From positions 186,001 through 250,000 of the forward strand of contig NW_024881505.1 of assembly GCF_019059575.1 (NCBI RefSeq): DNA of 64,000 nucleotides. The letters run 5' to 3'. The translations under genes and the position numbers were made by a program. This document shows positions 64 through 63,866 of this stretch, piece by piece; the stretch's first letter is position 1, and each line of letters opens with the position of its first letter. The notes below the pieces were generated by a model. The model was not told where the DNA came from, searched no databases, and saw only the letters and a program-made list of their open reading frames with translations. Source of the stretch: Amphibalanus amphitrite (taxonomy: Eukaryota > Arthropoda > Thecostraca > Balanomorpha > Balanidae).

Positions 64-955
64 TTAACCCGCGCCGGCACAGGCCATTTTGCGTCCTTCG
101 ACGGCACAAGGGGGTCGGTACGATCCCCCCCCCTCGCGTTTGGCCCCTGATCGAGCAGGAGCTTCGCGGAAAAAACGAGCGTGCTGCCCGTCACAAGACG
201 AAGCCGATGCTATCCAATTTTAAGGTCCTAGGTCATCGGGTAACCTTCCAGGTCATGTCAATGACCCGAAGATCGGGGAAATCGGGACCTGTTAGTAAGT
301 TGTAAAGTGTGGCTGCTACGGGGTTTTCTGGGGTGCTGATCACGAATATCGTGTTAGTTTTGATCAGAGATGATGTCTTTAAGCATTTAGACCAGGTCGG
401 GTCAGGTCAGGTCAGGTCAACCGGTAGGGGTCGTGACGGTATTCGTAATACGTGTCAACCGCCTCTGACAGCTTCGTAACATGCTGCGATGGCACCAAAA
501 CTACTTCGTAAATGCTCAAATGGTTGCTAAATTCGAAATCAGCTCCAAAAACTAGCCTAGAAACATGTAAAACTCGAAAAAGTGAACCGAGGTCACCTAA
601 GGTCAATGACCTGACCTGATCTTCAGGTGACCTTGGCATCCACCCTTATGCATGGGAGCAACATCAAATCACATGTTTGAACGTTTAAAACCACGAAAAG
701 CTTACAAACGCGCGGCTAATGCGAGCCGACATACGCTAAATCGCGATTCCGGCCAAGCATGGTCTCGGAAAGTAGGTCACAGGTCAAAGGGCATTTGGGT
801 CAGGGTCATACAATTTTCAGGGTAGGTGTAAAATTAATCAATGCGAGGGTACTGAAAGTTTCGTCGCGATCGGCCGCTTTTTACGCGAGTTATTCGCGAA
901 AAACCTTAGGGGGGGGGTTGCATCAGCCCCCCACCCCTGTGCCGGCGAGGGTTAA
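64..955 (+). mobile_element. TTAA-flanked MITE, piggyBac-like (copy T1, A family)
   Basis: TTAA lies at 64-67 and 952-955, followed or preceded by the inverted CCCGCGCCGGCACAG / CTGTGCCGGCGAGGG ends. Just inside each end is a G-run/C-run hairpin: GGGGG-TCGGTACGA-CCCCC on the left and a G-run, TTGCATCAG, C-run on the right. The interior has no plausible ORF and holds GGTCA repeats (about 393-419) and further TGACC words. TTAA targets with CCC-starting ends are the piggyBac signature; the superfamily assignment is by ends only. It shares its right TTAA with the next element. Internal stretches recur inverted in the copy at 37836-38835. Confidence 0.8.
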
Positions 956-2125
956 CCCGCGCCCCGTTGGGCTCTGCCGAGCAACGCGCCCCGTTTGAGG
1001 GGGGGGGGGCAATTTGCCCCCCCCTAAGATCTCGAGAACCACGCAACCTAGCGACAAGCGGCAAACGGTGTTGGATAGCCCTATCAGGGAACTACCTTGT
1101 GACCCAATTTTATTGACCTAGATCAAACCGATGACGTCACAGGTCAGGTCAAAGGTCGAATTTTCACCGTTTACAGGCATTTCAAGAAATGCGTTGTAAA
1201 ATCCAGTAAAATGCATTTCATTGAAAATCATCGATGGGGAAATGTTCTTCAAACACATATTTTGCTATTTGAGGTCACTGATACCAGGTCAGGTCACAGA
1301 GGTCAGGTCACTGCAGGTCACAATATGAAAGTGTCGTGTGATACATGTTTTATGGTCCATTTTACATGACAAATGTGATTATGTGGGTCAAGCAGACTTT
1401 TGGGCCAGCGTAGGTCACGTTTTGGTCAAGGTCAGGTCAAGGTCAGGTCAAATTAGGTCAAATTTCAAAGTTAATATTTTTGCATAAAATGGGTATCTAT
1501 TCGATGCAGCTCGTCACAGGGAGTTCAATGGTGGTCTTTATTTTGCCCTACGTGGTCTAGAATCGCTAAAAATTGAGTTCAAAAATTTGACGTCATCATT
1601 TTGAACAGTTTTTTCGCTATAACTTGGCCAAAAAACGAGATATCGATCTTAAATTTGGTATGTATATAGAAAGCACAGGGTCTATCATATATATTCCGGT
1701 TTTTTCGAAATTCGGAATTATTTTGGATTTTTTTTTAGTTTTTCTAAAAAACTCAATTTTTCGAATTTTTGGGGGTCAAAAACCCAACATTTTAAAAATC
1801 CGAGATAGCAATTTTGTAGCGCAGCTTTTTGTCTACTAGACCATATAAAGATCTTTGAAATTGCTTAGTAACTGTAAATTTGGTGAGCGTTTCAAGATTG
1901 CATGTTTTTTTTTTTTTTTTGCTCATTTTTGCTCGGACATGACCTCAGTTTGACATCAATAACTCCTGACCTAAGGTGACATAAGACTTGAAATTCGGTG
2001 TGAAGGTGTCAAATTGATGCCCGGGAAGGAACTGAAAATTTGGCGGCGCTGCGCGCCGCCGTTTTCTTGCTATTTAGGAAAAACCACAGGGGGGCCAAAA
2101 TGCCCCCCAACGGGGCGAGGGTTAA
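952..2125 (+). mobile_element. TTAA-flanked MITE, piggyBac-like (copy T2, B family)
   Basis: TTAA at 952-955 and 2122-2125. The left end reads CCCGCGCCCCGTT, then repeats GCGCCCCGTT after 17 bases; the right end is AACGGGGCGAGGG. Terminal hairpins are a G-run, CAATTTG, C-run (about 1000-1023) and GGGGGG-CCAAAATG-CCCCCC (about 2091-2109). A subterminal GGCGGCGC/GCGCCGCC palindrome (about 2042-2060) is shared with other copies. The interior is non-coding and rich in AGGTCA words (1271-1455). It abuts T1, so the pair is a compound insertion in an older E-family copy. Confidence 0.8.
1271..1455 (+). promoter_or_regulatory. Cluster of AGGTCA nuclear-receptor half-sites inside MITE T2
   Basis: About a dozen AGGTCA or GGTCA words lie in direct orientation, including GGTCAAGGTCAGGTCAAGG near 1430-1446. 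TCAAGGTCA is the known monomer site of FTZ-F1/NR5 receptors, and AGGTCA is the core for HR3, E75 and EcR/USP. The words are seen directly; receptor binding is inference. It lies about 1.2 kb upstream of the first cuticle gene. Confidence 0.4.
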
Positions 2126-2200
2126 TAGGGCTATCAAAGGCGTTTTTCCAGGGCGATGTAGCAATATTAGTTTTCGAGTTAGGCGCCGGGCTAGGTGTCA
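2126..2200 (+). repeat. Right part of the interrupted E-family MITE
   Basis: It continues the element begun at 1-63. TAGGGCTATCAAAGGCG and CGAGTTAGGCGCCGG match 11743-11810 and 63560-63625. Similarity fades after about 2200. Bases 2201-2577 hold no recognised feature other than the upstream region of the next gene. Confidence 0.65.
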
Positions 2201-2577
2201 TATAACTTCCCTTTGTCAAAATAAAATACAACTTCGTTTGCTGTCGACCACCCATTTGAAAGTCTTGGAAGAAAATTGGGGGTAGATGGCGTTTTTTGGG
2301 CGAAACGCACCTTTTACGCTGTCACTTGCACATCGCAGCTGCTTCTTATTTCCCTAAATCAAGCCGTTTGTCAAGATTATCTCCCTTTATCGTTAATCTG
2401 CTGAACTGACCGGTAGCAGCGCAGAGCACCCTGGTTAGAGCAGCAGTCACCACTGTCGCTAATACCACTAAGCAGATCACCTGTCGATATCTCCGACGAG
2501 CGGTCACGTACCGGGAAAGGATGCGTAGCATACCAACAAGTGCAGCCAGTTCGGAAACAAAAACAATCCAGTCGGCC

Positions 2578-2605
2578 TATAAAAGAGAGCTCCGAATCTC
2601 ACAGT
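2578..2605 (+). promoter_or_regulatory. TATA box and initiator of the first cuticle gene
   Basis: TATAAAAG at 2578-2585 and the initiator-like TCACAGT at 2599-2605. The same TATA-to-initiator arrangement recurs upstream of the other cuticle genes. The ATG lies 62 bases after the TATA start. Confidence 0.75.
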
Positions 2606-2639
2606 AGCAGTTCGCTCCTAGCATCGAAAGAGATTCAAT

Positions 2640-3169
2640 ATGAAGCTGGTAAGTGAATCAGACGCGCTTATCCTCTGAGTTGCATGCATCTCAAATAACT
2701 TGATATATTTGTATGATGAAGTTGCTCGTACATCTGTGCGTGTATTATCTGTGTGTGATCTGCATGCTTTACATGGCGCTGTATGTAGACATGCTCTTAG
2801 CTTTCGTTTGTTGTGATTTGGTTTTATCTCCAGTATGACCATCTTCTCCTCTGTCAGCTGGTGGTCTGCGCTCTGGTGGCTCTGGCCGCCGCCCGGCCGC
2901 AGGACGAACCCAAGTTCAAGACGCTCGAGGATGCCGGCATCCTGCGCATGGATTCGACCATGAACGAGGACGGCTCGTTCCAGTACGGCTTCGAGACCAC
3001 CGACCCGATCCAGCAGGACGTGGCCGGACAGCCCAAACAAATCGGAGAGGAGATCGGCATCGCCATGCAGGGATCCTACAGCTTCCAGACTCCTGACGGT
3101 CAGACCATCACCGTCAACTGGGTGGCCGACGAGAACGGCTTCCAGCCGGAGGGTGACGCTATCCCGTAA
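2640..3169 (+). CDS. RR-1 cuticle protein (two exons, 106 aa)
   Basis: This gene encodes a secreted chitin-binding structural protein of the cuticle. Exon 1 (2640-2648) encodes M-K-L and is followed by the donor GTAAGT; exon 2 runs 2858-3169 after a CAG acceptor (intron 209 bp, phase 0). Residues 1-16 form a signal peptide (MKLLVVCALVALAAAR). Residues 20-40 are a short linker (KTLEDAGILRM), and 41-106 are the Rebers-Riddiford chitin_bind_4 domain of RR-1 type, with DGSFQYGFET, the QGSYSF turn and WVADENGFQP in place of the more usual Y-V-A-D-E-N-G. It ends right after the domain (GDAIP), so it is the shortest of the close paralogues here. It is the only cuticle gene on the + strand among the first five. 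Regulation: TATA/initiator promoter, and a polyadenylation signal at 3380. Confidence 0.93.
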
Positions 3170-4766: not shown

Positions 4767-5452
4767 TTAGATGAGGCCCACAGGTGCAGTAAAAAGGCGC
4801 TGGGTGCCACGCACTGGTGTGGGGTCCACAACAGGGGCGTTCGGCGCCTCGGGAGCCACCGGGATGGCGTCGCCTTGCGGCTGGAAACCCTTCTCGTCGG
4901 CCACCCAGTCGATGGTGATGGTCTGACCCTCAGGGGTCTGGAAGCTGTACGATCCCTGCATGACGACAGCGATTTCCTCTCCGATTTGTTTGGGCTGTCC
5001 GGCCACGTCCTGCTGGATCGGGTCGGTGGTCTCGAAACCGTACTGGAACGAGCCGTCCTCGTTCATGGTTGACTCCATGCGCAGGATGCCGGCATCCTCG
5101 AGCGTCTTGTACTGGGGCTCCAGGTCCTGGGGCCGGGCGGCCGCCAGCACCACCAGAGAAGCCAGCAGGAACTGCAATACAGATTGATGTTTGGTTTTGT
5201 GTTAGATTTAACGAAGTTTGGCTAAGGCCACACATTGGTATTGTCAGCGATCTAATGAGAGAAACATTTCTACTGGCTGTATAATCTCGAGTTGACCACA
5301 TCGATATTTCCATTAATCCAGCGTAACTCGAAGGCCAGTCCAATCGCTTGAGATTTGAACTATGAGGCGTAGTGCTATTTTGGGGTGTCTTACTGGCATG
5401 CAAAATACACTCATGCACCTATGGGTCAAAAATAGTGTTCGCATTTGTTGTT

Positions 5453-6752: not shown

Positions 6753-7677
6753 TTAACCCGCGAGTTGCTGGGGGGGGGCGTTAAACGCCCCCACTTTTTT
6801 CGCCGGGCCATAGCATAAAAACGGCGCGCCGCAGGCGCGCCAAATTTTGGGTACCTGTAGGGAATTGATTAAAGTTTATTGTGACAAAGTTTCAAAAAAA
6901 TCGGTCGGAAAATTTTTGAGATATCGAGATTTTAGTGACGTCATGATTTCTGACTTTTCGACCAAAAACGGCATATGTTCAAAAAATCATATAAAATCAC
7001 AGAATAGACATACAGACATGCCGTAAACGCCATTAGACTGCCAATACCATGATCAATCAAATGGCTATCTTCGATTATTGATTGTCGTTCCGCATTTTCC
7101 ATAATCTTGAACTGAATCTTGGCAATTTCTCGTGACTACTTCACGACCATGATACATGCATTTCTTAAATTGAACTTTTTGAGCCAAACACGTACACATA
7201 TGATAAAATGAATGTCACCATCGTGTTCTACGCCCCAAATTACCTATAAAACATGTGTCACAGGCTGCTAATATCAGTTTTGATTTTCGGGGATATGTGC
7301 CTACCCGGTTGACCTGACCTTGACCCTGACCTATGCTTGACTGACCCCCTACATGGAGCTGACACTCTTGTAGGCCTTATATGATGGATTGTGCACCGTT
7401 TTGACAGAGTTTATGACGAGAGGCGCCCATTGCGAAGTCCTGAAGTCCATGCTACTGAAAGCCCGATTTCAGGTGTTTGACCTGACCTTGACGCGACCTG
7501 TGACCTCAAAATTCAACTTTTAAGTACTCATCTGAAGCGTCTCGTCGCGTTCTTTCGTTTGCCGCCTCGTGCGTTTCGCTGCGCCTATTGGTTCTCGAGT
7601 TATCGGCTGGGGGCGTTTAACGCCCCCCCCCCCAGCAAACGGTGGGTGGCGAAATACCCCAGCAACTGCCGGGTTAA
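6753..7677 (+). mobile_element. TTAA-flanked MITE, piggyBac-like (copy T3, C family)
   Basis: TTAA at 6753-6756 and 7674-7677. Ends: CCCGCGAGTTGCTGGGG and, inverted, CCCGGCAGTTGCTGGGG. Terminal hairpins share the loop CGTTAAACG at both ends (about 6779-6787 and 7614-7623) between a G-run and a C-run. A subterminal CGGCGCGCC...GGCGCGCC palindrome (6812-6841) follows the left hairpin. The non-coding interior has TGACCT repeats at 7311-7350 and 7478-7505. Two other partial copies of this family occur, inverted at 25960-26200 and direct at 41520-41700. Confidence 0.85.
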
Positions 7678-14215: not shown

Positions 14216-15399
14216 TTAACCCGCGCGGGGCTGGGGGGGGTAAATTTTACCCCCTCGCGAATTTTTGCGATATCTCAAAAACGGCGGCGCGCAGCGCCGC
14301 CAAACTTTCAGTACCTTTTCTTACATCAATTTGACACGTTCCCTGAAAATTTGAGCGAAATCCGTCGGAAATTTTTTGAGAAATTGACGTTTTAGTGACG
14401 TCATGTTCGCCATTTTCGCCTCAAAAACGGCAAAAGTTCAAACGCCGCTAACATCTTCATTTTTAAAGGAATCAAGACGTAACAAAAAAGGTTATACGTA
14501 ATTTTACTTTGTCTATCAAATGGCTATCTCGGTTTTTTGAAAATTTTGGATTTTGGCCTACATTTTTTCAAAAAAAACTGACTTTTTTGGGAAAATCATT
14601 ATAAAATCCAAAATTATAAGTCTATCGAAAAAACCGGAATATATGTCAGAGAAGTGGTCTATGTGCACCAACATACCAAATTTTAGAAGAATCGGTTCAA
14701 AAATGTGGGAGTTATTCAAAATTTTATGACGTCACGACACACAAAATTTTTGAAAAATGACTTTTTTGGAAGTTCTAGACCTCGAACGGAAACAAAAATA
14801 GCACCATTCGATTTGCCGTGAAAAACTGCATCAGATAGACACCTTTTTAGGCCTTAACAACCAACTTCAAAATTTGACCTCACTTGACCTGACCTTGACC
14901 TGACCTCGACCTGAAATTCATCCAGAGGTGGTCAATATCACTAATTGAGTGTGCCTATTGAATTCTATGAGTAAAATGACCCATAAAACATGTGTCGCAC
15001 ATGCCCTTTTCTATATTTTGTTTTTTGGTGACCTGACCTGACCTGACCTGACCTTGACCTTGACCTCTGAATGATATTGTATGCAACGAATATTGTCTTG
15101 GTAGCCTAAGAACACGTTTTGGGCGATCAGTCTCAGTCCATGACTCCATTCTTCGGTAACTACGGTGCAAGGCCGATACTGTAGAAACTTGCAATTTGTA
15201 CCCTTGACCTGACCTTGACCTTGACCTCAAACTTTAAATTAAGTACATGTTTTTAGTATTTCGTGATGAGAGCTTTCGATTGGCGTTTGAATTTTCCAAA
15301 TCGGACCATTAGTTCGGGAGATAACAGGGGGGGTAAAATTTACCCCCCCCCCCCCAGCCCCGCGCGTTCGGCTGGAGACCCCAGCCCCGCGCGGGTTAA
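14216..15399 (+). mobile_element. TTAA-flanked MITE, piggyBac-like (copy T4, G family)
   Basis: TTAA at 14216-14219 and 15396-15399. Ends CCCGCGCGGGGCTGG are inverted and near-perfect, and the right end carries the GGGGCTGG word twice. Terminal hairpins: G-run, TAAATTTTA, C-run on the left (about 14232-14255) and G-run, TAAAATTTA, C-run on the right (about 15326-15357). A subterminal palindrome CGGCGGCGCGCAGCGCCGCC lies at 14283-14302. The 1184-bp interior has no ORF and carries arrays of TGACCT at 14874-14915, 15029-15065 and 15201-15228. It is the cleanest full-length copy in the window. Confidence 0.88.
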
Positions 15400-22545: not shown

Positions 22546-23555
22546 TTAACCCTCGCACCGACGGGGGGGGCGGATATCCGCCCGCCCTTAGGTTTTTCGC
22601 GAATAGCGGGAAAACCGCGGCGCTACGCGCCGCGAAATTTGGTATGACTATAACCTCATCAATTTTACACATGGTGTGCAAGTTTGAACCTCCTACCTTT
22701 TAAGGTCAGGTCACCAGGTCACTTTGAATGACCCAACCTCAAGTCACTTTTTTGCAACTTTGTCACCGTGCCAGAGCTACAGTAGATGTCGGAGGCCTTT
22801 GAAAGTCGCAGGATATTATTAGGTCATTAGTTGCTACAATTTGTATATCTCGGAATTTTGATATCGGTGACCTAAGGTCAGGTCAATTTCGCGACCTCCC
22901 CATTATAAGTCAATGGGGGAAAAATCAACTCCCTGTTTTTACCACTAAAACGGGTCGGAATGGCCCCATATACCATACATGACTTCATATACGATCAACC
23001 TTCACTACCTTGAGGTCTGTTTTGCTGTTGGGCAGCTGTGAGGTCATGTGACGTCATCAAAGGTCACCAAAGGTTTTTGGCCAATAACTCCGTACAGGAA
23101 CAAGATACAGCCGCGTGGATGGTCTCATTGTGTTCAGCTCGTCAAGACGCATCGAATGATATACATGATGACCTCGAGGTCACGTGACCTGAGGTCAACC
23201 TTTGACCTTGACCTTTCGAGGTCAACATATATATCATTCGATGCGGATTGACGAGAGGATCACGATGATGCCCTTAGTTTGTTCCTATCTTGACTAATTC
23301 GAAAGTTATTCGAGAAAAACTCTCTCCATATCTAGCGCCGCCATTTTGACTTTTTCGACCCCTGTGACGTCATCTTTGACCTGACCTGAAAATGACCTTA
23401 GTAAAAATTGTAGATCTTGGCCGTGCGTATCCGATGCCGTTTACCGCTTGTCGCTATCTTGCTTCGTTCTCGAGATCTCGGGGGGGGGCGGTCATCCGCC
23501 CCCCCCCCCCCGTCGGTGCGAAGTTGGCGCAGACCCCCGTCGGTGCGCGGGTTAA
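22546..23555 (+). mobile_element. TTAA-flanked MITE, piggyBac-like (copy T5)
   Basis: TTAA at 22546-22549 and 23552-23555. Ends CCCTCGCACCGACGGGGG and, inverted, CCCGCGCACCGACGGGGG. Hairpin loops CGGATATCCG (left) and CGGTCATCCG (right) sit between a G-run and a C-run. A subterminal CGCGGCGC/GCGCCGCG palindrome is near 22616-22636. The interior contains ATATCGGTGACCTAAGGTCA (22862-22881), also found in the E-family copy at 44938. It sits 143 bp upstream of the TATA box at 22396-22403, so it could influence that promoter. Confidence 0.85.
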
Positions 23556-26224: not shown

Positions 26225-26772
26225 TTAACCCTCGCACGACCAGGCCATTTCTCATAACACGAACGACCAGGGGGGGGGGGGGGGGGGTTGTTACGACCCC
26301 CCCCCTGGCGTTTCGAAACGGAAGGTCGTAGAGCTTAGCGGAAAAAACCAACGGATTGCTCTCAACGAGATCTCGCGATTGGTGGTATATTTTTTGGTCC
26401 TAGGTCAACATTTGACCTACTTTTGACCGGTCAAAGGTCAAATTTTCGGAAAAATAGACTTTTTTCAACTTTCGGCGGCGATTGCGGCAAAACGGTGGGA
26501 GATATCGACTTGAAACCTTCACTATCGTGTTCCTTGATCAATTCTCTATCGTTTGGTATGTATTTCGTTTCCCTAGTTCTAAAAATGGCGCGTTGGGAGC
26601 GCCGGAAGTCGGCAAGGTCACAGTCGGCGGCAGAAATTCGAAAAATCAAAATTTAAATTTTTGAAATCTGATTGTATTTTTGGATTTGGGAGGTCCATTT
26701 GCTCCCTATAGAAGCTAATATTGCTGCATATTCCCATTGAGGTGACAAGAATTAGCAAAATAGTGGTTCGGG
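26225..26772 (+). mobile_element. Left end of a TTAA-type MITE (A-like)
   Basis: TTAA at 26225-26228, then CCCTCGCACGACCAGG and a second ACGACCAGGGGG. The hairpin is a long G-run, TTGTTACGA, C-run at 26270-26306. The following CTTAGCGGAAAAAACCA resembles 166-180 of T1. No right end was found; the M-type MITE at 26773 begins within or directly after it. Confidence 0.65.
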
Positions 26773-27155
26773 CCATAGATATAAAGACTAGATAGGGCAC
26801 CCCCATGTCGGGAGCGACTCGCGAATACGTAGCAGCGGCCGCCATGTTGGTGAGGGCGAGAATCTGCGGCGCTGTGTAAACACTATGGGAGGAGGGGGGT
26901 GTTTGGGACAGATTTTGTGGTATTTTTCGACCGAAAAGTGTTAATCTTTTTTACCTATGGCATTCTTTGGAATGAGTAGATTGTGAAACAAGGGCAGAAA
27001 CATGTGTATTTATAGTAATGTAATTACATCAGCCCTAGACATATAGCCCTGAAGACGCTGATAAAGGATATGCGGCACCGAAGGTAGATGCAATTGGCAT
27101 GCTAATTTAAGATTAAATTCGTTTCCCATTATGGCTACCATACTTTATATCTATG
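26773..27155. mobile_element. MITE with CATAGATATAAAG ends (M family, copy 1)
   Basis: Inverted 13-bp ends: CATAGATATAAAG at 26774-26786 and CTTTATATCTATG ending at 27155. Much of the interior (383 bp, non-coding) is repeated in reverse complement at 34480-34828, including AAAAATACCACAAAATC and the GTGTTTACACAGCGCCGC region. Confidence 0.7.
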
Positions 27156-28433
27156 TATGCAGTATGCAATGGACAATGATCGACAATAAGTGCAATTTTA
27201 GCCCTCACCCGTTCGTAGTTTGTCAGCGTCTTACGAGTAGGGGAAGCCAGGGTGAACGGAGTGAACTCCAGCCGTTCGCCCCTCGACGGAGCAAGAACGG
27301 ACAAAAATAGGTATGCTGTCCGCGATGTGAGTAAACCAGTGATACAAAATTTCAGGGTACTAGGTCAACGGGTGAACTCAGAGGTCAGGTCAAACACTGG
27401 AAATCGAACCAGTAAAGTCACTGGAGTTTGAGATCTTTCGCTATAAAATCGACCAAAACGCGTGAACTGTCGGCGAAATGGGTTACATCATTCCCAATCA
27501 ACCTCATCTCGAAATCTAGCGAACCGGGTCACATAAGGTCATACAAGGTCAGCGACCTTAGATGACCTCGGATGGCCTTGACACATGGCGGGTCATGTGA
27601 AGTGTATTTATGGGCGCCGATCTCGAATCCCGTGTCAATCTTACTTTAAAAAATGATTTGCGGGCACAAATCCGCAAACATAATTAAGGATTACGAATAA
27701 AATGAGCAAGAGGCTCCGAAAACTGCCCATATGAAGCGCAGCCTTGACCTCGAGGCAAATGCACGTTATCTAGACATCAACACTAAAAAAACGCATGTAA
27801 AATGCATAAACATGCACTAGAAGGCAAGGAAATTCACCCGGATGCGGCAAATCGCAAAATCCGCTTATTTTAGCCGAACATGACCTGGCCCGAGCTCCGA
27901 TGACCCATTCCTCACTTTGAATCAATCCGCGCCCCCTACAGGCACCGACATCGCCCTTGCAGACAGCACCGACGATAGTCGCACAGGCACGTGGCGAGCT
28001 AGTGTAACTGTAGCCGCGCCTTCAGCCACGAACACCAGTTTGTGCCGGATCAGCCAGTCACGGAGCAGAGACGGCCGGCAACGAATCGGCAATTAACAGT
28101 GCTACATATCGACACGGTCACAAGAGGCGAGGCGTTAACCCAGCGCCCACTGCATTGGTCGCCAGTGGACCCACTCAGTCACTAAGCAATCATCGACAAA
28201 ATACGTCTTTTATCGGCCAGACATTGATATGTTCATTAATATGAAGTGTCCATCCAAATCCACGCTATCCGCCACACAGCAGCTATCGACGGTAGATACC
28301 CACTCCAGCGGCAGCTGGCCGCGACTCACTGACACCGGCTAGAGACAGCTGACCGCTGAAATCACCAACACTTCGGCAGGGTATGAGCGGGTCTCAGTCA
28401 GATCCCAGGCATGTAACCCGTCCCCACCTTAGC
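27156..28433. other. Degraded GGTCA-rich DNA, no gene
   Basis: 27355-27600 contains many GGTCA words (for example AGAGGTCAGGTCAAACACTG) and resembles A-family MITE interior. From 27650 to 28433 I recognise nothing; this flanks the transposase fragment. Confidence 0.4.
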
Positions 28434-28842
28434 TCATCTGGCAGAGATGATGAAGAGGTGGTAAAGCTGTGTCATGTCGTCCGGCTGGATGTCGCTCACC
28501 AGGGCCTCCTGACAGGTGCTACAGCTGACAGAGTCGAGCGCCTTCTTCACCACGAACCCTGCGATGTAGGTGACGATGTTGCCCACCAGACGACAGCCCA
28601 GGCTGGAAGTCGTGCTCCGCGATGATGTGGAGTGCCGTGGCACCGTTGTCTGAGGTGGTGGAGGCCGAGGTAGTAAGGCTGGCTCCCCGTCCGCTGGTCG
28701 TGTGACCGACTGCCAGGATGCTGGTCGGGTCGAGGGCTGCCACTTTCCCTGTGCTGCCGGGCCGGACGCCGCAGCGGTGGAGCAGGTGCCGGAATATCCC
28801 GCAGAACTGTGCGGCACTGGGGTTGTTCCAGCCACCTGGAAG
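28434..28842 (-). pseudogene. P-element-like transposase fragment
   Basis: Minus strand, after a possible CCTTCCAG acceptor. One frame reads G-W-N-N-P-S-A-A-Q-F-C-G-I-F-R-H-L-L-H, like the NPTALQF segment of P/THAP9 transposases. A second frame reads L-V-G-N-I-V-T-Y-I-A-G-F-V-V-K-K-A-L followed by C-S-T-C-Q-E-A-L-V, the YIAGFV...C..C..AL block seen in the same family. The two lie in order but in different frames, with the shift near 28600. Upstream exons (THAP domain, catalytic core) were not found. Family assignment rests on recalled motifs. It is likely a decayed DNA transposon rather than a host gene. Confidence 0.55.
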
Positions 28843-28934
28843 GTTCGATTAGTATCAATAAAATATGGCTAATAGTGTTTAGTGTTAACATACGCCAGGC
28901 ACAAGTGTTGTATTTGTTGTTAACACATTGTTGA

Positions 28935-28978
28935 CACACACGCAAACGCACACACACACGCACACACACACACACACA
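28935..28978. repeat. (CA)n microsatellite
   Basis: Interrupted CA dinucleotide array. Confidence 0.9.
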
Positions 28979-29039
28979 TGTTGGCAATGGTAAAGCAGTC
29001 TCCGGGCATTTGGTAATAATTTTTTGCACTTATTCTGGT

Positions 29040-29814
29040 TTTAGTGACTGATGGGCCTTTACCCACGCATGACTGGAGGGTGGGGCTCTACAGAGCCCCT
29101 CTCCTGTTTTCTGCAATAAAATATTTACATTTATATATTGAAAAAATTAAAATATATATTTGTTGCAATATTTCTAAACCACTAGACGTGTCAATACGAA
29201 ACTTGCAGTACCTTCGGCTGCATCAATCTGAAACATTTTATAGAAATAAAAATTGTGTAGCTACCATAGGTCGGCCGTAAATGACGTCAGAGTGATCAGT
29301 GAAGTCATATTCTGCCAATTTTGATGCAAGAAATTGAACTACAGCAATCGCTCTCGGTGACAGATAACCTGTAACAATATAAAAAAATGAAGAGTCTGTA
29401 GCTTTTACTTGCCAATGCAGGGTGATCTCTTGACTCTTGAGCCTCATCCCTGGTTTGTCAGCAATCAAATCCTGCACATCTATTTGGCATCTTGATTCTT
29501 GAGAGACTGAGAGGCAAATTTCAATTTCAAAAGATACTAGTCTTTAAAGCTGAAACATATTAACAGTTAGTCAGATCAAAACAAGGCCTGTAGCATACAA
29601 GTGTAGGATACTGGATTTGCACACAGTACACACTACAAAATACACATAGCAAACAGTGAGATTACAGTCATGGAAAAGCATCAGGTTTTTTAAATAATAG
29701 TTTACACAGACTTAAATACAATAATTTAAATGAGCTTCAAATAAAATGAGAAGTGGATTGAAGTACCTAACAAATAAGGGTATCCATAAATCTGGTGCCA
29801 CCGTCGGCACATAT
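29040..29814. other. Intergenic, nothing recognised
   Basis: Open frames of up to 79 codons on either strand show no motif. Confidence 0.3.
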
Positions 29815-29925
29815 AAGGTTGGTAGGTTGTAGGTGGGTAGGTTGTAGGTATGGAGGTTGTATGTAGGTTGAGGTTTGTAGGTTGTAGGTTAGTTAGGTTA
29901 GTAGGTAAGGTTAGGTCAAGTAAGA
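29815..29925. repeat. (GTAGGTTG)-type minisatellite
   Basis: Degenerate tandem copies of GTAGGTTGTAGGT followed by TTAGGTTAGTAGG. Confidence 0.85.
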
Positions 29926-30654
29926 TTATGATTTTTATCTTCCTTGGACTTCATATTTACTTGTTAGCACTTAGCATTGATGGTAACGCCAGATTTACTA
30001 ATACCCTATTTACTGATACTGATAACAGGTGAGCCAAAAGAGCATGAAGTGTAGTTTAAGCTTTACAATGTGAAAACTAATTAGGTAATGACAATCTGAG
30101 TTTAGGTGCTCCAACTAACACACATTTTTACGTCACCCCTGTGCTGTTCATTATTGGGATCAAATGTGCGACACGGTTCACTGGTGCAGATATCACGACG
30201 TCTGGCATTTTCACTATCTATCAGCTCTGGTTGAGGGCATGGGCGCCGCCACCGGGGGGGACGGGGGGGACGCGTCCCCCCCACTCACAGAATGGAAGGG
30301 GGACGTCCCCCCCAAACTCATTACGGAGCGAGCGAAGCGAGCGTAGTCTTTCGTAGGTTAACGGAAATTTCTGAGTATGCCGTGGTCACGCTTTTGCTAG
30401 GCTTATATCTCAGCAACCACTTGATCGACTTACATGCGGTAATTTTTGTAGGGTAGCTAACGAGCATCGGACTATTCCCGATGCATGTGAGTGACCCCAT
30501 ATGCACGTGCCACGTGAAAAACGAAGAGGTGTCAGTGTTGTAACAATTTCAATATCTCGGCAACTACTGGGCCGCCATTGCGCTGAAAGTTGGCATGTAG
30601 GTAGGTATACCTACCCACTAGGCAATGCATATCCATGTGCCACAGTTGGGGTGC

Positions 30655-30935
30655 TGCTGCACGTGCGCACATGCAGGGGTCGATTCCAGATCTCGAGAAC
30701 GGCTGAACCGATTATACTGAAATCTGATACATGGTTAGGGACCGGTTAGTAGGGTGCCGTGCAAAAGTCAGTTGGGACCCATTTTGCACGTGCGCACGTG
30801 CAGGGTGCCGCTTCCAGATCTCGAGAACGGCTGGGCCGATTGCGCTCAAATTTGGCACATCGTTAGGGACCGGTTAGCAGAGTGCAGTGCACAAGTTAGT
30901 TGGAGGTATCCCCTCGCAATTTCGCACGTGCAAGG
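30655..30935 (+). repeat. Two or three tandem units of about 127 bp
   Basis: GCACGTGCGCAC...GCAGGG followed by CCAGATCTCGAGAACGGCTG and GGGACCGGTTAG occurs from about 30659 and again from about 30786, with a worn third start near 30922. Each unit carries a CACGTG palindrome. Confidence 0.7.
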
Positions 30936-31356
30936 CCCACTCCACCCTCTCGCTCGCTCCGTTGGTCGCCCCAAAAGGCGTTTTACTGGTTGTTATCCTA
31001 CTCGAAATTTGATTAGGCCCTTCGGTCCAATGAGACCATTTCAGAGCCGCAAGTATGAAAGAATTAGTGGGAGACATTGGTCGGGGCAGCCACCCCAGTG
31101 AGCCACTTGGGATGAACCCGACTAATTGAACAGGCAGCCCAGCCCACTGGCACTCACTCACCCAGCAAAGGACTATAGCTCCAGTGGAGCCATTCCCGCA
31201 TAGGATAGAGTTGCCCGTCCAGCCCAGAGCAAGGGGTTGCGGCGTGGAGGAGAAGGATTTGACTGTCCTGAGGATGGAAGAGATGGAACGGCCGGTGCCG
31301 AATCTGAGAGGGTCCAGGAGGTTTAGATACCTACTCAGTATATGGGGTGTGGGCCT

Positions 31357-32181: not shown

Positions 32182-32190
32182 TACCTAAAC

Positions 32191-32363: not shown

Positions 32364-32803
32364 TACCTAAACTACTTTCCTCAAACCAGTTGTTTTGCCA
32401 CAGTTTTATGAGTTTTTAAACTTAAAATGGTCAGGAAATAATGAATATTTGCTAATAGATTTTATATTTATTTTTACATCACTATTTTCCATCTTTCGTA
32501 GAGGCTACTTACCTATATTGCAGCGGTAGCTGATTACGCGTTGACCAAGCATAGTACGTAACTCAAACCAGCTGAATGCTGATTGGCTAGCATTTTTCCG
32601 TAAGGGAATGGATTCCTCGGTAAGAGAATGACAAAGTGTAATCTATGCGAATGACGTCAGTCTTCAAACCTAAAATCGATACCGGTATATTTGGCTAGGG
32701 CGATCGTTGGGCCATAAAAGCTCCTGATTTGTTCTCGTCTCAGCTCAAGCTACAAAACTGCTACTTCAGTTCAAAACCCTATGTTAAAAGTGGCATATTT
32801 GCT

Positions 32804-34011
32804 TTAACCTTCCAGGCGGTGGGGGGGGCAATTTTTTGCCCCCCCTTTAGTTTTTTCGATATATCTCGAGAACCGCTGCGCCGATCGTCACCAAACTTTC
32901 AGTACCCTCCCGGGAGCAGCTAGCGCACATGGTGACCAAAATTTTTTCCAAAGGCCATGATAGGTTGGCCGCTAATGACGTCAGAGTGACGTCATTTTTG
33001 CCATTTTCGACCCAAAAAAAGGTTTCGTGGGAAGAGCTGTCAGGCCTACAGCTTTAGAGATACAGAAAAATGTTTCAGACATAAAAGATGTAAAATTAAA
33101 AGGGCTACAAAACTGCTATTTCGGTTTTTCGAATTTTTTGGACTTTGACCCCCAAAAATCAAAAAATAGATTTTTTGACTATAATAGCCAAAAAATCCAA
33201 AAAGTTTTTTGAATTTCGAAAAAAAACCGGAATATATGTGATAGCCCCTACCGCCTTCTATCTACATACCAAATTTGAGATCGATACCTCTTTTTTTGGC
33301 CAAGTTATAGCGAAAAAACTGTTGAAAATTGATGACGTCAAATTTTCAAACTCCATTTTTAGCAATTCTAGACCTCGTAGCGCAAAACAAAGACCACCAT
33401 TAGACTCCCCGTGACGAGCTGCATCGAATCGATACCCATTTCATGCATAAATATCAACTTTGAAATTTGACCTTTTTTGACCTGACCTTGACCTGACCTC
33501 CACCAGAAAGTGACCTAAACCGTACCTGATGGTCTTATAACCAACACCATTGAGTTGGAAATGAAAAACTGGCCATAAAACATGCATCGCATAACCTTAG
33601 TAAAGTTGGGCTCATGTGGTGACCCTTGGTGACCTTTGGTGACCTGACCTGTGACCTGACCTGGTATGACCAGTGACCTCTAATAGCAACATATGTACTA
33701 GACAACCGACGCCTTATCGCTGATTTTCGACAAAATGCGTTTTACTCGGTGTTATAGCGCTTTCCCTAGAAGCCCCGTGAACGGTGAAACATTTTATCTT
33801 TGACCTGACCTGTGACGTCATCGGTGACCCTGAGGTCAATGAAATTTGGTTTCCCTCGACAAATTTGACAGGGCTATCGAACGCCGTTTGAATTTTCCGG
33901 ATCCGTCCAGCAGTTTCGGAGATACGGGGGGGGGGCAAAAAAGTGCCCCCCCCCCCCCCCCCCCCCCACCGCGCGGAAGGTGGCTGGTAGGCCCACCGCC
34001 TGCCGGGTTAA
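32804..34011 (+). mobile_element. TTAA-flanked MITE, piggyBac-like (copy T8, P family)
   Basis: TTAA at 32804-32807 and 34008-34011. Ends CCTTCCAGGCGGTGGGG and, inverted, CCCGGCAGGCGGTGGG. Hairpin loops: CAATTTTTTG on the left (about 32829-32838) and CAAAAAAGTG on the right (about 33935-33944), both between G- and C-runs. The 1208-bp interior is non-coding; TGACCT/TGACC arrays lie at 33469-33500 and 33619-33678. Confidence 0.85.
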
Positions 34012-34125
34012 ACGTTGAATGCATCCGACCGAAAAAGCCACGGTAAGAATGTCTACTTTTGGGTTTTCAGTCGGTCAGTCCGTCCCCCCCAGTCAAAAAT
34101 CCGTGGCGGCGCCCCTGGTTGAGGG

Positions 34126-34479
34126 TGAGCGTGGTATGCCACTGCACTCTGAACCCAGAGCGGATAAGAGCCCCCGAGGCATCTGGCATAGTGCATGGAT
34201 TTTTCGTTTGGCACTGAACTACTATTTAATACTAACTGATGACATTAAGTAAAGTACTTATTTAAAACCTATAATCATAAAACCTTCTTACTTCATAAAT
34301 ATTGTCCATTGAAGGCAACAGTAGAAAGTGAGCAGGCAAAGCAAGTGTAGGTAATGAGTCTGCTTTCCGCTGCCAATGTTCTGGTACCTATCTAGGTAAG
34401 CTTTCTTTGTGAAAAATCATATGACTGATGCTCTATCCATGCAAGAATAATTAAAGGATTGTGGTGTGCACAAAAAAAA
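34126..34479. other. Intergenic, nothing recognised
   Basis: No gene or element end was identified. Confidence 0.3.
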
Positions 34480-34828
34480 ACATGGGAACTGAATTAAATC
34501 TAAAACAGGCATGCCAAGCAAATCTACCTTTGGTGCCGCCTATTCTTCATCAGCGTCAACAGTGCAACATGTCTAAGGCTAACGTAGCCAAATTACAATA
34601 GATAAGCATATTTCAGCACTTGTTCCACAATCTACACATTCCAAAGAATGCCGTGAGCAAAAAAGATTAGCACTTTTCGGTCGAAAAATACCACAAAATC
34701 AGTCTCAAATACCCCCCTCCTCCCGTAGTGTTTACACAGCGCCGCAGATTCCCGTCCTCACAAACATGGCGGCCAGTCGCACGCACTAAAACACTGCCAA
34801 TGTCCCATCTAGTCTTTTATATCTATGG
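34480..34828. mobile_element. MITE, M family, copy 2 (inverted)
   Basis: Reverse complement of the copy at 26773-27155 over most of its length. Its intact end, TATATCTATGG, lies at 34818-34828; the other terminus is missing or worn. Confidence 0.65.
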
Positions 34829-35246
34829 TTCGGGCGCTTTTCAAAAATAGTACCGGACGCTGTTCCTCTTGTGACGTCATAGCTCCGTGACCTGACCTGA
34901 CCCGGTCAAATTTCTTATACCATATGATAGCCAATACTTGCCCCAACATGCATAGGAAGTTTCATCACGATCCATCAACCGATGTCCGTACCACCGGCAG
35001 GAAACCTCGGGCGTTGGCACTCAGTTTGTGAAAATCCGGCCGGAGGCTGTACCTCTTATGACGTCATAACTCCGTGACCTGACATGACCCGATCAATTTT
35101 TTTCGGCAAAAGATGCGCAAAGGCTGCCCCAGAGGGTATTGAAAATTTCAGCCCGCTACGACAAGCCGTTTAGCGTGCACTTCGAAAAAACCTCAGGGGG
35201 GGGGGGGGTTGATACAACCCCCCCCCCCTAGGCGTTCTAGGGTTAA
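34829..35246 (+). mobile_element. Right end of a TTAA-type MITE (copy T9)
   Basis: The hairpin G-run, TTGATACAA, C-run (about 35197-35229) is followed by CTAGGCGTTCTAGGG and TTAA at 35243-35246. Inside, CTCTTGTGACGTCATAGCTC (34867-) is repeated as CTCTTATGACGTCATAACTC about 187 bases later, so the interior holds a direct duplication. The left end is not seen. The LINE begins directly after the TTAA. Confidence 0.7.
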
Positions 35247-37835: not shown

Positions 37836-38835
37836 TTAACCCCCGCATGTGTAGGGGGTTGGATGGCCCTCGGTTTTCTCGAATAACTCGCGCAAAAAGC
37901 GGAAAATCGCGACGAAACGTTTTGCACCCTCGAGTTATCAATTTTAAATCGACTCTGAAAATTTCATGACTCTGACCCAATTGACTTTTGACCTGTGACC
38001 TATTTCTCGATACCATGTTTGCCCGGAATCGCGGTTCAGCGTATGTCAGCTCACATTATTCGCGCGTTTCCAGTCTTTTTGTGATTGTAAATGCTCAAAC
38101 ATGTGAAATGATGTTCGTCCCATGAATTACGGCGGGTGTCAAGGTGACCTAAAAGTCAGGTCAGGTCATTGACCTTCCATGATATCGGTTCTATTCTTCG
38201 AGTTTTACACGTTTCTAGGGTAGTTTTTTTCGGGCTGATTTCGAAGTTAGCATTCATTTGAATATTTACGAAGTAGTTTTGGTGCCTTCGTAACATGTTA
38301 CGACGCCGTCAGTGGTAGCTGACACCTACTATGGATAGCCGGCAGGACGCCTACTGGTTGACCTGACCTGACCTGACCCGACCTGGCCTAAATACATGAA
38401 AACATCATCTATGATCAAAACTAAGATGAAATACGTGATCACTACCCCGAACAACCCCATAGCAGCTTCACAGTAACACAAGTACAAGATTCTTACCCTC
38501 AGGGGATCTTTGGCGCATATCAACGAGTGCGCAAACCAAAATGAGCCTGATCGGACGTGTTAGCCGGCGGCAAGAGCCTAAATTGTGAACAAGCCAAAAC
38601 AAAATGCTGATAATTTTTAATTTGATCTGACTTGTGACGTCATCGGTGACCTCAAGGTCAATGAAATTAGTTTTCGTCCGACAATTTGTCGAGGGCTATT
38701 ACCCGCCGTTCGTTTGAATTTTGACAATCGGACCAGTGGTTTCGGAAATAGGAGGGTGGGGAGAGGGGGCTCTGTAAAGTCCCCCTGGCCCAGTCAGCCG
38801 CGTTTTGGAAAATACCCCAGCCATGCGCTGGTTAA
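37836..38835 (+). mobile_element. TTAA-flanked MITE (copy T10), inverted relative of T1
   Basis: TTAA at 37836-37839 and 38832-38835. Ends CCCCCGCATGTGTAGGGG and, inverted, CCAGCGCATGGCTGGGG. Interior stretches are the reverse complement of T1: TGACCTGACCTGACCTGACC (38358-38377) matches the array at 393-419, and AATCGCGACGAAACG resembles 865-875. 1000 bp, non-coding. The short G/C hairpin on the right (about 38765-38788) has the loop CTCTGTAAAGT. Confidence 0.78.
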
Positions 38836-42893: not shown

Positions 42894-43716
42894 ATGAAGC
42901 TGGTGAGTGACCTCCGAGCCCATGGCATACCGCACACATTCAAACAGTCGAGCTGTGAGCCATGTGAGAACCAAACCCCTGCGAGAACTGAGATTGTGAA
43001 GCATTTCTGAATGGAAGCCTTCGGCTAGAATAGTCATAGTAAATGGTCGTTTTGGTTTCGGCTTTCTTTCGCTTCATGAAAGGTACATTTACATTGTACC
43101 ATTTTCGCTTGCCTGCCTTTCAAATGGTGACATCACTTTTGAACTGTTCGTCTCCAAGTCTCGTCGATGTGCCGATATTTGAACAAATTGGCAATTAGTT
43201 ACTCCCTTTGCAAGCTGCCAGAAAACAGCAATGAGGAACTATTTCTCTGATGGGAATGTGACTGTCTCGTCGTCCATTCACGCCCCAGTACTGCGGACTG
43301 CAGATTGTTGTTCAAGTAACCACCAGTTCAAGTACCTCTCAGCTCTATGCCACCCACGTGCTTGTGCTGCCGTATTCTCACTACCCGCTGTCTGACCTGT
43401 CCACCAGGTGATCCTCTGCCTGTGCGTGGCCGCGGCCGTGGCGAGGCCCCAGGACACCCCGCCGGCGGAGCTTCTGCGGCTGGACAGCACCCAGAACGAG
43501 GACGGCTCCTTCCAGTACGCCTTCGAGACCAGCGACCCCATCACCGTCGAGGCCGCCGGACAGGCCAAGCAGATTGGAGAGGAGATCGGTGTCGTCATGC
43601 AGGGCTCCTACAGCTTCGAGACCCCTGATGGTCAGACAATCACCATCAACTGGGTGGCCGACGAGAACGGCTTCCAGCCGCAGGGCGATGCCATCCCGGT
43701 GGCTCCGGCGGTTTAA
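42894..43716 (+). CDS. RR-1 cuticle protein, diverged paralogue (two exons, 105 aa)
   Basis: Exon 1 is 42894-42902 (M-K-L, donor GTGAGT); exon 2 is 43408-43716 after CCACCAG (intron 505 bp, phase 0). Signal peptide MKLVILCLCVAAAVAR. A very short linker (PQDTPPAELLRLDST) precedes the RR-1 domain: NEDGSFQYAFETSDPITVEA, QGSYSF, WVADENGFQP. It ends PVAPAV. The DGSFQYAFET and TVEAAGQAKQ variants, and its own codon choices (GCCAAGCAGATTGG where the others have CCCAAACAAATCGG), set it apart from the homogenised group. Predicted secreted chitin-binding protein. Confidence 0.92.
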
Positions 43717-46479: not shown

Positions 46480-47360
46480 CTACGACGGCAGGTGGTCGCC
46501 CTCCGCTTGGAAGCCGTTCTCGTCGGCCACCCAGGTGACGGTGTAGGTGACGCCGTCGTCACCGACGAAGCTGTACGATCCGCGCATCACGGTGCCGAAC
46601 TCCTCGCCGATCTGTCGCTGCTCTCCCCTCACGTCCACCGCCTGGCCGTCGGTCTGCTCGTAGCTGTAGGAGAAGGAGCCGTCGGGGTTCTGCACGTGGC
46701 TGGAAAGGAGCACCTCGACCGGCGGGTCCGGGGGCGAGTCTTCCTCGGCTACCGGCGAGCCCTCCTCGACCGCCGGCGAGCCCTCCTCGACGACCGGCGA
46801 GCCCTCCTCGACCGCCGGCGAGCCCTCCTCGACCGCCGGCCGGCCCGCGGCGGCGACCAGCAGCGCGGCGAGCAGCAGCTGAGGGTGGGAGGCGGTGGTC
46901 AGTGATCTGAGGAGGAATCCCAGGATAAGTAATCGGTAGGGAGGTGAAACACAGCTAGACACTGACATGGTGCGTTGTTTAGATAAGACACTCATCAAGT
47001 TCACTTTATACCTTGTGCTAAGATGCATTTGAGTGATAGCAGAACAAATTTTTCACTCCCGAGCGGTAAAGGAGCAGGGTAGTAAGCAAGCAAGATATCC
47101 TGAAAGGTTCTGATCACTTCGATGTGCCCAAAATGTTAGCACCTGTATGTTGAAGTTTTACTCTAATCGGAATTAACTGGAAGATAATGAGTTAGTTGCA
47201 AGTAAGATACGCTCTAAACCACTACGGACCGGTGACCTACATGCTATCAATGACATCTGCAATCGACCGAGTCCTAAAGAAAACAAGCACATCTACAACA
47301 CGCTTTACATCACTTTGTGATATTGAAACTTCAACCACAGCTCCTACTTACGAGTCTCAT
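46480..47360 (-). CDS. RR-1 cuticle protein with acidic heptad repeats (135 aa)
   Basis: Exon 2 is 46878-46480 after a CTCAG acceptor. The best first exon is 47360-47352 (M-R-L, donor GTAAGT), giving a 473-bp intron and phase 0 as in the other genes; the in-frame ATG at 47028 lacks that layout. Signal peptide MRLLLLAALLVAAAGR. Then come five heptads of the form (A/V)-(V/A)-E-E-(G/D)-S-P. The RR-1 domain follows: NPDGSFSYSYEQTDGQAVDV, GEQRQIGEEFGTVMRGSYSF, DDGVTYTVTWVADENGFQ, ending GDHLPS. This domain is nearer the general arthropod RR-1 consensus than the other eight. The acidic repeat could tune charge or calcium binding in the cuticle (inference). Confidence 0.85.
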
Positions 47361-62074: not shown

Positions 62075-62180
62075 GGGCAAACAGATAAGAAGACATTTTC
62101 TATTGTTATGACATATGTGTTGATACTTGATTGACTCACGAAATGATTTTGTTGTAGGTACTTCAATGAAATCATATGAA

Positions 62181-62604
62181 TTAACCCTCGCCCGTCCTGA
62201 CATTTTTACAGCCGCTTGCCAATAGGGTCGACCATCCCTTCTCAGCCGTTCAACCTTTCAATAAAGTCAACCGAGGTCACTTAAGATAAATGTCCTTGAC
62301 CTGACCTTGACGTGACACTAACATCCACCATAATCCATGGCACAAACATTAGGTTGGCACGTTTCTAATCACAAAAAGTCTTAAATGTGACTTGCGTCGT
62401 ATTGCCATCCGGCCAAACATGACCACGAGAAACATCAGAGGTCAATTAAGTCAATAAGGTCAGAGTCATGAAATTTTAAAGACTGTAAAATTCATTGACC
62501 CGCGAATGATAAAAAATTCGTCGCGATCCGCTTCATCCGTGAGCTACCTATGTGTGAAAAACGAGGGAGTCCGTACGACCCTCCCCTAAAAGAGCGAGGG
62601 CTAA
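62181..62604 (+). mobile_element. Short TTAA-type MITE (A family)
   Basis: TTAA at 62181-62184 with CCCTCGCCCGTCC; the right end AGAGCGAGGGCTAA closes at 62604. The hairpin is GGGAGTCCGTACGACCCTCC. Interior words (TTGACCTGACCTTGACG, AAAATTCGTCGCGATC) match T1. At 424 bp it is half the length of T1, so it is probably a deletion derivative. Confidence 0.7.
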
Positions 62605-62646
62605 ACGATGGTCGATGAAGTCACGGATCAACCGTTACGGCGTTTA

Positions 62647-63866
62647 TTAACCCGCGCCCTGCGGGGGGGGGGGGCATTTGAACACCCACCTGTGTTTTTT
62701 TTCGGGAATACCTATCTATAAGAAGAAGAAAAAAAACGGCGGCGCAAAGCGTCGACGTTTTGGACACACTTTATCATACATATTTTTTAAACATGGTAAG
62801 AAAAGTTCAGAACAAAATTCCTCAAGGTCAGGTTTATACCAGGTCACTTCAAGTGACCTCACCTCATAAAAAGTTTCAGTGTCTGCTTTAGGTCAACACC
62901 GAGTGACGAATCGCATTTAAACTTTTAGAGATTGATAAGAACATTAGTATGTACTATGTACCAAACCAAACGTATGTCTCCGAATTTTTATATCAGTGAG
63001 ATAAGGTCAGGTCAATTTTGCGACCTCCGCGTTACGTCAACGGAACAAAATTGAGAGCCGCCTCTTTTGAAAAAAAACGTCATTCTAAACACTCTCAAAC
63101 ACTGAATAACAAGTGTAACTATGACACACTGAACTGGAAAATGGCACCCGTGACCCCTATTCATGCCCCTGCAGGTCATGTCATGTCACGAATGATATCT
63201 AATAGTTTTTCGTGAATAACTCTTGATAGAGGCATGCTAGAGCAGCGAAAATGCCTTAGCTGTACCCGGCTCAACGATACGGATCGACTGATATGCAACA
63301 TGACCGTTTCCATTCGGGTCATAGCCTTGACCTGAAGTTAGAATTAAAGTTGACCTTTCAAGGTCAAATTATAGTCGATTCGATGCGTCTTGACGAGAGG
63401 AACACGACACCGGTAAAAGTAGGCTCGTGCAAGGTTTGAGTCAAAAGTGATTGCAGATCAAACTTTCCGCAAAAATCGGCTGTTTTCACAGATGTTCCTC
63501 CTGCAGGCAAAACCGTTGACCTTAGGTCAAATCTGAGAGAGTTGTTCAGATGACCGTTCAAAAGGGCTATCAAATACGCTTTTCCGGCGCGCTGTAGCTT
63601 TATTGGTTTCCGAGTTAGCGCCGGTGTTGGTTTGCTGAGAATTGTGACCGACCTAAAAATCGACGAAATATGGCCTTCATTGACCTCCGGTAACCTGACC
63701 TTTGACCTGACCACAAAAGTGACAAACATTATTTTTTACGCTCTTTCGGACGCCGCCTTCTTCGTATCGCTGCGTACCCCAGGAGCTGAGTTAGAAGTCG
63801 GGATGTTTCACCCCCCCCCCCCCCCCCCCCAGCACGGCGTAGAAATCCCAGCGGGGCGCACGTTGA
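62647..63866 (+). mobile_element. TTAA-type MITE (E family), most complete copy
   Basis: TTAA at 62647-62650 with CCCGCGCCCTGCGGGG; the right end GCGGGGCGCACGTTGA is a worn GGGGCGCGGGTTAA. The left hairpin is a G-run, CATTTGAACA, CCCACC; the right side has a C-run of about 20 (63811-63830). A subterminal CGGCGGCGCAAAGCGTCGAC is present. It serves as the reference for the copies at 1-63/2126-2200, 11316-12060 and 44655-45485. Confidence 0.75.

Follow-up and report, generated by a model that had tools for sequence, protein, structure and literature searches.

The window analysed here, a stretch of 64,000 nucleotides from the genome of the barnacle Amphibalanus amphitrite (C8:186001-250000; searched genome, 807.6 Mb), carries a set of TTAA-bounded, piggyBac-type elements whose two ends hold an outer word and, further in, a run of G, a short core and a run of C. 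From the letters of the window, the original prediction had described the latter as a hairpin with a loop that differs between families and corresponds at the two ends of one copy. All five loop pairs that it had quoted were found in place; read inward, two of them are identical (CGTTAAACG/CGTTAAACG in 6753-7677 and TAAATTTTA/TAAATTTTA in 14216-15399) and three are similar (CGGATATCCG/CGGATGACCG, CAATTTTTTG/CACTTTTTTG and CATTTTGG/CAATTTG, the last in 952-2125).

The leftmost element, at 64-955 (minus strand, plus denoting a short end at the left), is a non-autonomous piggyBac-type element of family CCGGCACA with a long-end module at 64-133, a short-end module at 909-955 and an interior that we call body A; five pieces of it are 86-92% identical to the transposase-bearing element of locus L025. 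Its TTAA at 952-955 is common to an element of a different family, CCCCGTTG, located at 952-2125 (minus; long-end module 952-1024, short-end module 2089-2125). This second element is 89% identical to the transposase-bearing element of C702 over the first 1,010 bp of the latter and 94% over its last 129 bp, and from this alignment it looks like an internally deleted form of a C702-type element. Three elements on the plus strand follow, at 6753-7677 (family AGTTGCTG; short-end module 6753-6792, long-end module 7609-7677), 14216-15399 (family CGGGGCTG, core TAAATTTTA; short-end module 14216-14254, long-end module 15327-15399) and 22546-23555 (family CACCGACG; short-end module 22546-22587 with core CGGATATCCG, long-end module 23480-23555 with core CGGATGACCG). 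The short end of 6753-7677, of which a further copy with 97% identity lies in L025, consists of the word GTTGCTGG and a palindrome centred on CGTTAAACG, and its long end of the word, a spacer, a second word and then the same palindrome. A copy of the C44 transposase family spans 26225-35246 (minus; long end 26225-26305 with core TTGTTACGA, short end 35196-35246 with core TTGTATCAA); its ends match those of C44:1060842-1064816 with 91% and 89% identity, and it is broken up by other DNA, including the nested element 32804-34011 (plus; family AGGCGGTG; short-end module 32804-32845 with core CAATTTTTTG, long-end module 33926-34011 with core CACTTTTTTG). Finally, 37836-38835 (no strand assigned) is a chimera that joins body A with a CATGTGTA short end, on the left, to the right part and long end of another family; its two ends are unmatched, which fits the immobile by-product expected from recombination. 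The element list of the original prediction therefore stood for its five pairs, and had to be widened to 64-955 and 26225-35246, which belong to the same set, and amended for the nested element and the chimera.

In total, 37 elements were paired by both ends (eight in the window, 12 in fetched loci, three of these bearing a transposase, and 17 on contig C1), and were assigned to 17 families by their short-end word; since the pattern searches listed only the first places, the paired samples are not random over the genome. The short ends at 22546 and 37836, which escaped automatic parsing, were set by hand for the core comparison, and the family representatives (one each) were picked for full-length cores, whereby the chimera 37836-38835 was excluded. 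Strict patterns for such ends, hereafter G-type, matched long ends at 40,067 genome places (20,004+20,063) and short ends at 36,415 (18,184+18,231); since the reversed control patterns gave only 0+1 and 0+0 matches, respectively, the patterns do not arise by chance.

The order of parts at the short end is TTAA-CCC, outer word, G-run, core and C-run, and at the long end outer word, spacer, a second copy of the word, G-run, core and C-run. The long-end palindrome sits 27-28 bp deeper in 31 of the 37 elements (24 at 27 bp and seven at 28 bp; 23-32 bp in the others). Matching ends had been correctly described; their asymmetry, the long-end palindrome lying behind the spacer and the second word, had been missed. 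The identity of the cores to their own reverse complement was 0.67 at short ends and 0.58 at long ends, in comparison with 0.27 and 0.24 for shuffled cores. Since the 'loops' are thus largely palindromic, G-run, core and C-run form a single long palindrome and not a stem closed by a free loop, and each element holds four half-sites. In the parts of PMC7351741 drawn on here, the right end (RE) of Trichoplusia piggyBac is described as differing from the left end (LE) in having a 17-bp insertion and a duplication, with RE bp 34-63 nearly identical to LE bp 7-35, and both ends hold a palindromic 19-bp repeat bound by the cysteine-rich domain (CRD) of the transposase. As judged from sequence, the layout of the barnacle ends coincides with LE35/RE63 of that transposon, including the displacement of the palindrome by 27-28 bp. 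In two elements, L015:864-2046 and C33:447032-451754, the asymmetric centre of the core is inverted between the ends (CCGAAACGG/CCGTTTCGG and CCATTTTGG/CCAAAATGA, respectively), as if the orientation of the palindrome did not matter.

Comparison of the ends across the 17 representatives revealed that the similarity of short-end cores was 0.86 to their own long-end partners vs 0.43 to those of other families when either orientation was allowed, and 0.80 vs 0.40 when read inward; the observed matching was reached by none of 20,000 permutations, so the left and right loops covary above all shuffled pairs, the check that the original prediction had proposed. The same result (0/20,000) was obtained for the outer words (0.93 for own partners vs 0.45 for others) and for the inner duplicate word (0.78 vs 0.50). 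The outer word had its own partner as best match, ties included, in 16 of 17 families, and the own partner equalled or exceeded the nearest other family for the short core in 15, the long core in 14 and the word in 16 of the 17. The flanks inside the palindromes, in contrast, group by end: their mean local scores across families were 23.8 (short-short) and 17.8 (long-long), compared with 9.1 and 9.9 after shuffling, and the mean short-long score was 11.7 within the same element and 10.8 between different elements. In 14/14 families either flank was nearer to the same flank of another family than to its own other end. These data indicate that the two ends covary beyond shared descent. It has to be noted that the difference between the CGGATATCCG and CGGATGACCG cores recurs in 3/3 copies of family CACCGACG, two of them on C1, and that a CGGGTGCCG/CGGGTACGA difference is present in three of the four copies of family CCGGCCGA, the fourth having a shortened short core; as the same difference recurs in copies, perfect matching seems not to be required.

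Transposase genes were approached through domain PF13843 (DDE_Tnp_1_7), with at least 116 scored matches in the genome, and loci were fetched around 20 of the best. Twelve of these loci, including several copies of one family, gave both ends of a transposase-bearing element, and at seven others the ends were not paired. The best-scoring piggyBac genes were rejected as movers of the G-type elements, because all 12 resolved cases have other ends (e.g. TTAACCCATTAG). The L025 transposase element has a G-type long end at 1925 and a short-end match at about 8499, the latter located by BLAST and word matches only. The flanks of ten further transposase matches yielded three more elements with G-type ends, namely C44:1060842-1064816 (the family of window 26225-35246), C702:33509-39481 (the family of window 952-2125) and C33:447032-451754. 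The PF13843 match had E values of 9.4e-60 for C33, 2e-64 for C702 and 5.2e-70 for C44, the C44 sequence being cut before its frameshift. The C33 protein aligns to the piggyBac structure PDB 6x67 over residues 116-643, Cys/His positions of the CRD included (E 1.2e-56), and to piggyBat 9c0f over residues 152-519 only (E 4.6e-21). Its motifs TIDES, TMDR and GVDVID, which we take to hold the catalytic aspartates, align to piggyBac. The C33 transposase is 39% identical to that of C702 and 38% to that of C44, and a genome search with it listed 73 matches, among which fragments and copies with stops are frequent. The search for a piggyBac transposase gene sharing the ends, suggested by the original prediction, was thus successful at C44, C702, C33 and L025.

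A CRD of the piggyBac type (C..C, C..C, C..H, C..C) is present in all four G-type cases, as judged by alignment for C33, by eye for C702 and an out-of-frame piece of C44, and by regular expression for L025. Among the 20 fetched loci, the regular expression assigned a piggyBac-like CRD to L025 only, another Cys-rich type to 16 and an unclear one to three. According to the part of PMC8086355 drawn on here, end organisation could not be related to CRD fold in any straightforward way; in the four cases seen here, a small sample, the piggyBac-type CRD accompanies two-ended palindromes. When a perfect-palindrome finder was applied to the 12 elements of other clades (family copies included), arms of at least 8 bp were found at both ends in none and at one end in 7/12; this finder is a weak detector, recovering both palindromes in only three of six window elements because the cores carry mismatches. 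Three loci of other piggyBac clades, L009:3353, L024:6422 and L027:7128, have, at a single end, a non-G palindrome of 18-20 bp with arms of 8-10 bp, which lies around bp 19-38 when TTAA is counted. Among the ten further transposase matches, reading of the flanks did not resolve both ends of a G-type transposase element at C18, C1052, C8:171135, C1459 or C387. The transposase elements of C531 and C366 were rejected as G-type, since both begin with TTAACCCAGGAACG, and no recognisable G-type ends were observed in the parts read of C757:194914-200052 and C72:1098794-1103932, whose transposase-like genes have another Cys-rich C-terminus and are possibly host genes.

A separation of ends from interiors was observed for body A, which occurs with three end codes, that is, combinations of word and palindrome: CCGGCACA in 64-955 and L022:7777-8678, CATGTGTA in L010:745-1633 and CCCGTATA in L025:722-1610. 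The body is 90-94% identical between these code families and 93% within the CCGGCACA family, and the end modules are 46-55% identical between families vs 95% within (Fisher test of body vs module, p 7.6e-12 to 5.4e-21 for five between-family pairs and 0.79 within). Alignments of body-A copies with the L025 transposase element break at much the same columns in all copies (194-195, 198, 398, 411-413, 496, 744 and 747), except that in L022 the first block ends at 185 and that one block starts anywhere from 685 to 701. The DNA from 496 to about 690 is common to body-A copies and has no match in L025. Because another element sits in the L025 copy at the 744/747 break, the main evidence that the copies share the loss of the transposase region is column 496 together with the common DNA that follows it. 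The simplest reading of these alignments is that body A stems from one internally deleted ancestor.

Genome searches located the body-A terminus with its short-end flank at 3,775 places and the long-end flank with its terminus at 4,505. Among 36 short ends with printed letters, 22 were paired within 2 kb, four at 2-8 kb and ten had no listed partner. Within 2 kb, a CATGTGTA short end was accompanied by a CATGTGTA long end in 9/9 cases and any other short end in 0/13 (p 2.0e-6), the 13 non-CATGTGTA pairs showing only that the long end is not CATGTGTA, with CCCGTATA and CCGGCACA not separated. In the four rows at 2-8 kb, a CATGTGTA long end was present for one of three CATGTGTA short ends, and the table including these rows (10/2/0/14) gave p 1.2e-5. 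End-pair matching under turnover, as originally proposed, is therefore seen both across the 17 families and within a single body.

Altogether, the data indicate that the matched 'loops' are very probably paired piggyBac-type transposase sites in non-autonomous elements of the Trichoplusia type, whose matching would be kept by joint mobility while bodies would be partly exchanged. The layout of the piggyBac CRD-dimer site and the linked transposases make a recognition code the most likely of the two functions offered by the original prediction, ahead of a fold-back structure. By analogy with piggyBac structures, the outer word close to either tip would be the site of the transposase core and each palindrome that of a CRD dimer, the long end would take a second dimer, and excision and integration would occur at TTAA. 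Matched ends would be needed for synapsis, and an element would move and multiply only if a single transposase fits both of its ends. Left and right codes would correspond because one transposase must bind both ends, and would differ between families because the transposase lineages have diverged, as the C33 protein has from those of C702 and C44. In the part of PMC13405395 drawn on here, a piggyBat core with piggyBac CRDs was active, together with a second variant, on a right end bearing the piggyBac palindrome.

Several observations weigh against this reading. Cores are identical in just 12/37 pairs and 6/17 family representatives, most of the others being similar, and the own-partner core is the best match (ties included) in only 14/17 families in either orientation and 12/17 when read inward, the inner duplicate word in only 12/17. 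The G-run varies in length from 5 to 22 across the 37 pairs, which shifts the centre of the palindrome. Tips are CCC in 71/74 ends of these pairs (the remaining three CCT or CCA), but the elements were found via TTAACC, so that TTAA and CCC tips are not independent evidence. No transposase was identified for 13 of the 17 code families, and the C44 copy is frameshifted before the CRD. Furthermore, the similarity of long-end modules correlates with that of long flanks (Mantel rho 0.44, p 0.0002), indicating that code and body are not fully uncoupled; simple independence of module and body is unsupported at the long end, and the correlation with short-flank similarity was not significant (Mantel 0.13, p 0.14).

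This partial dependence is also what shared descent of the inverted repeats would predict if the families were old unrelated lineages with nothing keeping their ends alike, and copies within a family do inherit both ends, and in several families the two cores differ in a constant way. Such an origin is nevertheless improbable: the families are related, their same-end flanks aligning and grouping by end, yet their words and palindromes mostly match the partner end, and three code families share one body. Shared descent alone was rejected on the flank grouping, on body A and on the 9/9 vs 0/13 pairing. Of the two outcomes that the original prediction had set against itself, neither was found, since the correlation goes beyond descent and the families are not unrelated. 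Even less credit can be given to the proposal that the G-run and C-run arms form extruded hairpins acting in transposition or replication, the loop sequence being a by-product. The arms are indeed long and pure in G or C and the cores largely palindromic, but the letters of the core are repeated from copy to copy of a family and correspond at the two ends, neither of which a free loop would need, the position fits the known CRD site, and L009, L024 and L027 carry non-G palindromes near one tip. Fold-back DNA as the working form is not favoured, the layout being that of the CRD-dimer site in the parts of PMC7351741 cited above, and no result points to extruded hairpins, at which no direct test was aimed. 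Termini built mostly of long inverted repeats, the hallmark of fold-back elements, were not seen among the 25 longest of 84 inverted pairs, in which the pairs joining the two ends of one element measure 24-31 bases.

The least certain step of the preferred reading, paired sites kept matched by joint mobility, concerns how bodies and codes came apart. Through recombination, code families would exchange part of their bodies, and amplification would be limited to those recombinants whose two ends match; this combination of recombination between elements and a mobility filter is our preferred account, with joint divergence as its main rival. In the comparison of 952-2125 with L015:864-2046, identity changes abruptly from 0.56 to 0.85 (z 10.4 vs a shuffle maximum of 4.3), and in that of L022 with L010 it falls from 0.93 to 0.60 at the long module (z 9.3 vs 4.7); three within-family controls gave z 2.4-4.8, under their shuffle maxima of 5.0-5.6. 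There is about an even chance that these patterns reflect end-pair switching, in which an element would acquire another matched pair of end modules (each with word, spacer and palindrome) while its body stays unchanged, by recombination or template switching between elements, so that a new transposase would move it; three codes on body A would imply at least two switches. A serious though somewhat weaker candidate is that the three codes arose without exchange, by fast point change of both modules along with a changing transposase: the three body-A families have words that seem alignable (C..GYRYA) and long-end cores that resemble one another (TGGTACGA, TCGGTTGGA and TCCGTTGGA). Against point change, the long-end word-spacer-word block keeps 14-18 of 34-35 letters between body-A families, spacer included, while the 60-bp flanks beside the palindromes stay 86-98% identical, and there is a sharp fall in identity at the long-end module. 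In other families, blocks of about 50% and of 90-100% identity are combined as in a mosaic, and the nearest counterpart of the CCGGCACA long module is that of CCCGCACA, on another body (0.72), ahead of those of its body-A sisters (0.51-0.56; shuffled, 0.48).

With piggyBac of Trichoplusia ni (LE35/RE63, PDB 6x67/6x68) these elements share TTAA, a short and a long end, the two-ended palindrome displaced by 27-28 bp, the duplicated inner word and a DDE_Tnp_1_7 transposase with a piggyBac-type CRD. The tips of Trichoplusia piggyBac are CCC. Unlike that transposon, the palindrome arms here are G-runs and C-runs, and at least 17 code families coexist in one genome, mostly as short transposase-less elements with tens of thousands of ends. 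As miniature inverted-repeat transposable elements (MITEs) in general, they are short, non-coding, high in copy number and deletion derivatives of autonomous elements; to our knowledge, one body with several matched end pairs is not a usual MITE feature. The CMITE elements of Acropora corals, in the parts of PMC2872659 compared, are likewise TTAA-flanked with CC[C/T]T tips, have interiors more conserved between families than their terminal inverted repeats (TIRs), and include one family linked to a piggyBac-like transposon; they differ in being about 100 bp long, with about 1,600 copies in A. millepora, and the same parts give no palindromes, asymmetric long end or left-right test. For piggyBat of Myotis lucifugus, the portions of PMC11707139 and PMC13405395 drawn on here describe a member of the piggyBac superfamily with a CRD dimer on a palindrome and asymmetric ends; in contrast to the barnacle elements, palindromes are reported for its left end alone, and its CRD has a different fold. 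The one-ended palindromes of L009, L024 and L027 resemble this layout, and the other clades here have another Cys-rich type.

The end layout is thus already known from piggyBac, and shared interiors with different TIRs from the coral CMITEs, as far as the cited parts of PMC2872659 go. A literature search of titles and abstract starts gave no report of shared bodies that carry a large set of matched, two-ended palindrome codes, nor any description of these elements under barnacle and piggyBac, and such codes on shared bodies are apparently a new variant of piggyBac-type ends. The asymmetric piggyBac ends are called enigmatic in the part of PMC7351741 drawn on here; as many related codes lie beside transposases in one genome, the CRD-palindrome code, the need for asymmetry and the origin of the families can be tested directly. 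End pairs that match internally but differ from one another could serve as non-cross-reacting transposon tools. If end-pair switching is true, the genome would be a natural library of transposase-end codes in tens of thousands of copies, each code having a two-part address, an outer word for the core domain and a palindrome for the CRD.

At the right of the window lie a decayed fragment with a TTAACCCTCGCCCGTCCT end (62181-62611, no strand assigned), in which no intact palindrome was seen and whose end point is approximate, and a decayed element (62647-63866, plus) with the short-end word CCCTGCGG, a TTTGAA core and a degraded long end, its end point being taken from the original prediction. 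The motif AGGTCA, presumably a nuclear-receptor half-site, occurs 131 times in 12,083 bp of window elements (10.8/kb), compared with 1.58/kb elsewhere in the window and 5.3 expected after mononucleotide shuffling; 64-955, 952-2125, 6753-7677, 14216-15399 and 22546-23555 are among the elements concerned, and GGTCAGGTCA in tandem was counted 48 times in the window. The elements are possibly a large dispersed reservoir of such sites. Putative cuticle-protein-like coding stretches, named by reading, are repeated in both orientations at 2871-3166, 4860-5158, 43570-43688 and 46496-46614, and a separate inverted-repeat family with words like CATTAAAGGGACTGTCCCACCTT is present at window positions 10962, 12157, 12669, 15839 and 16294.

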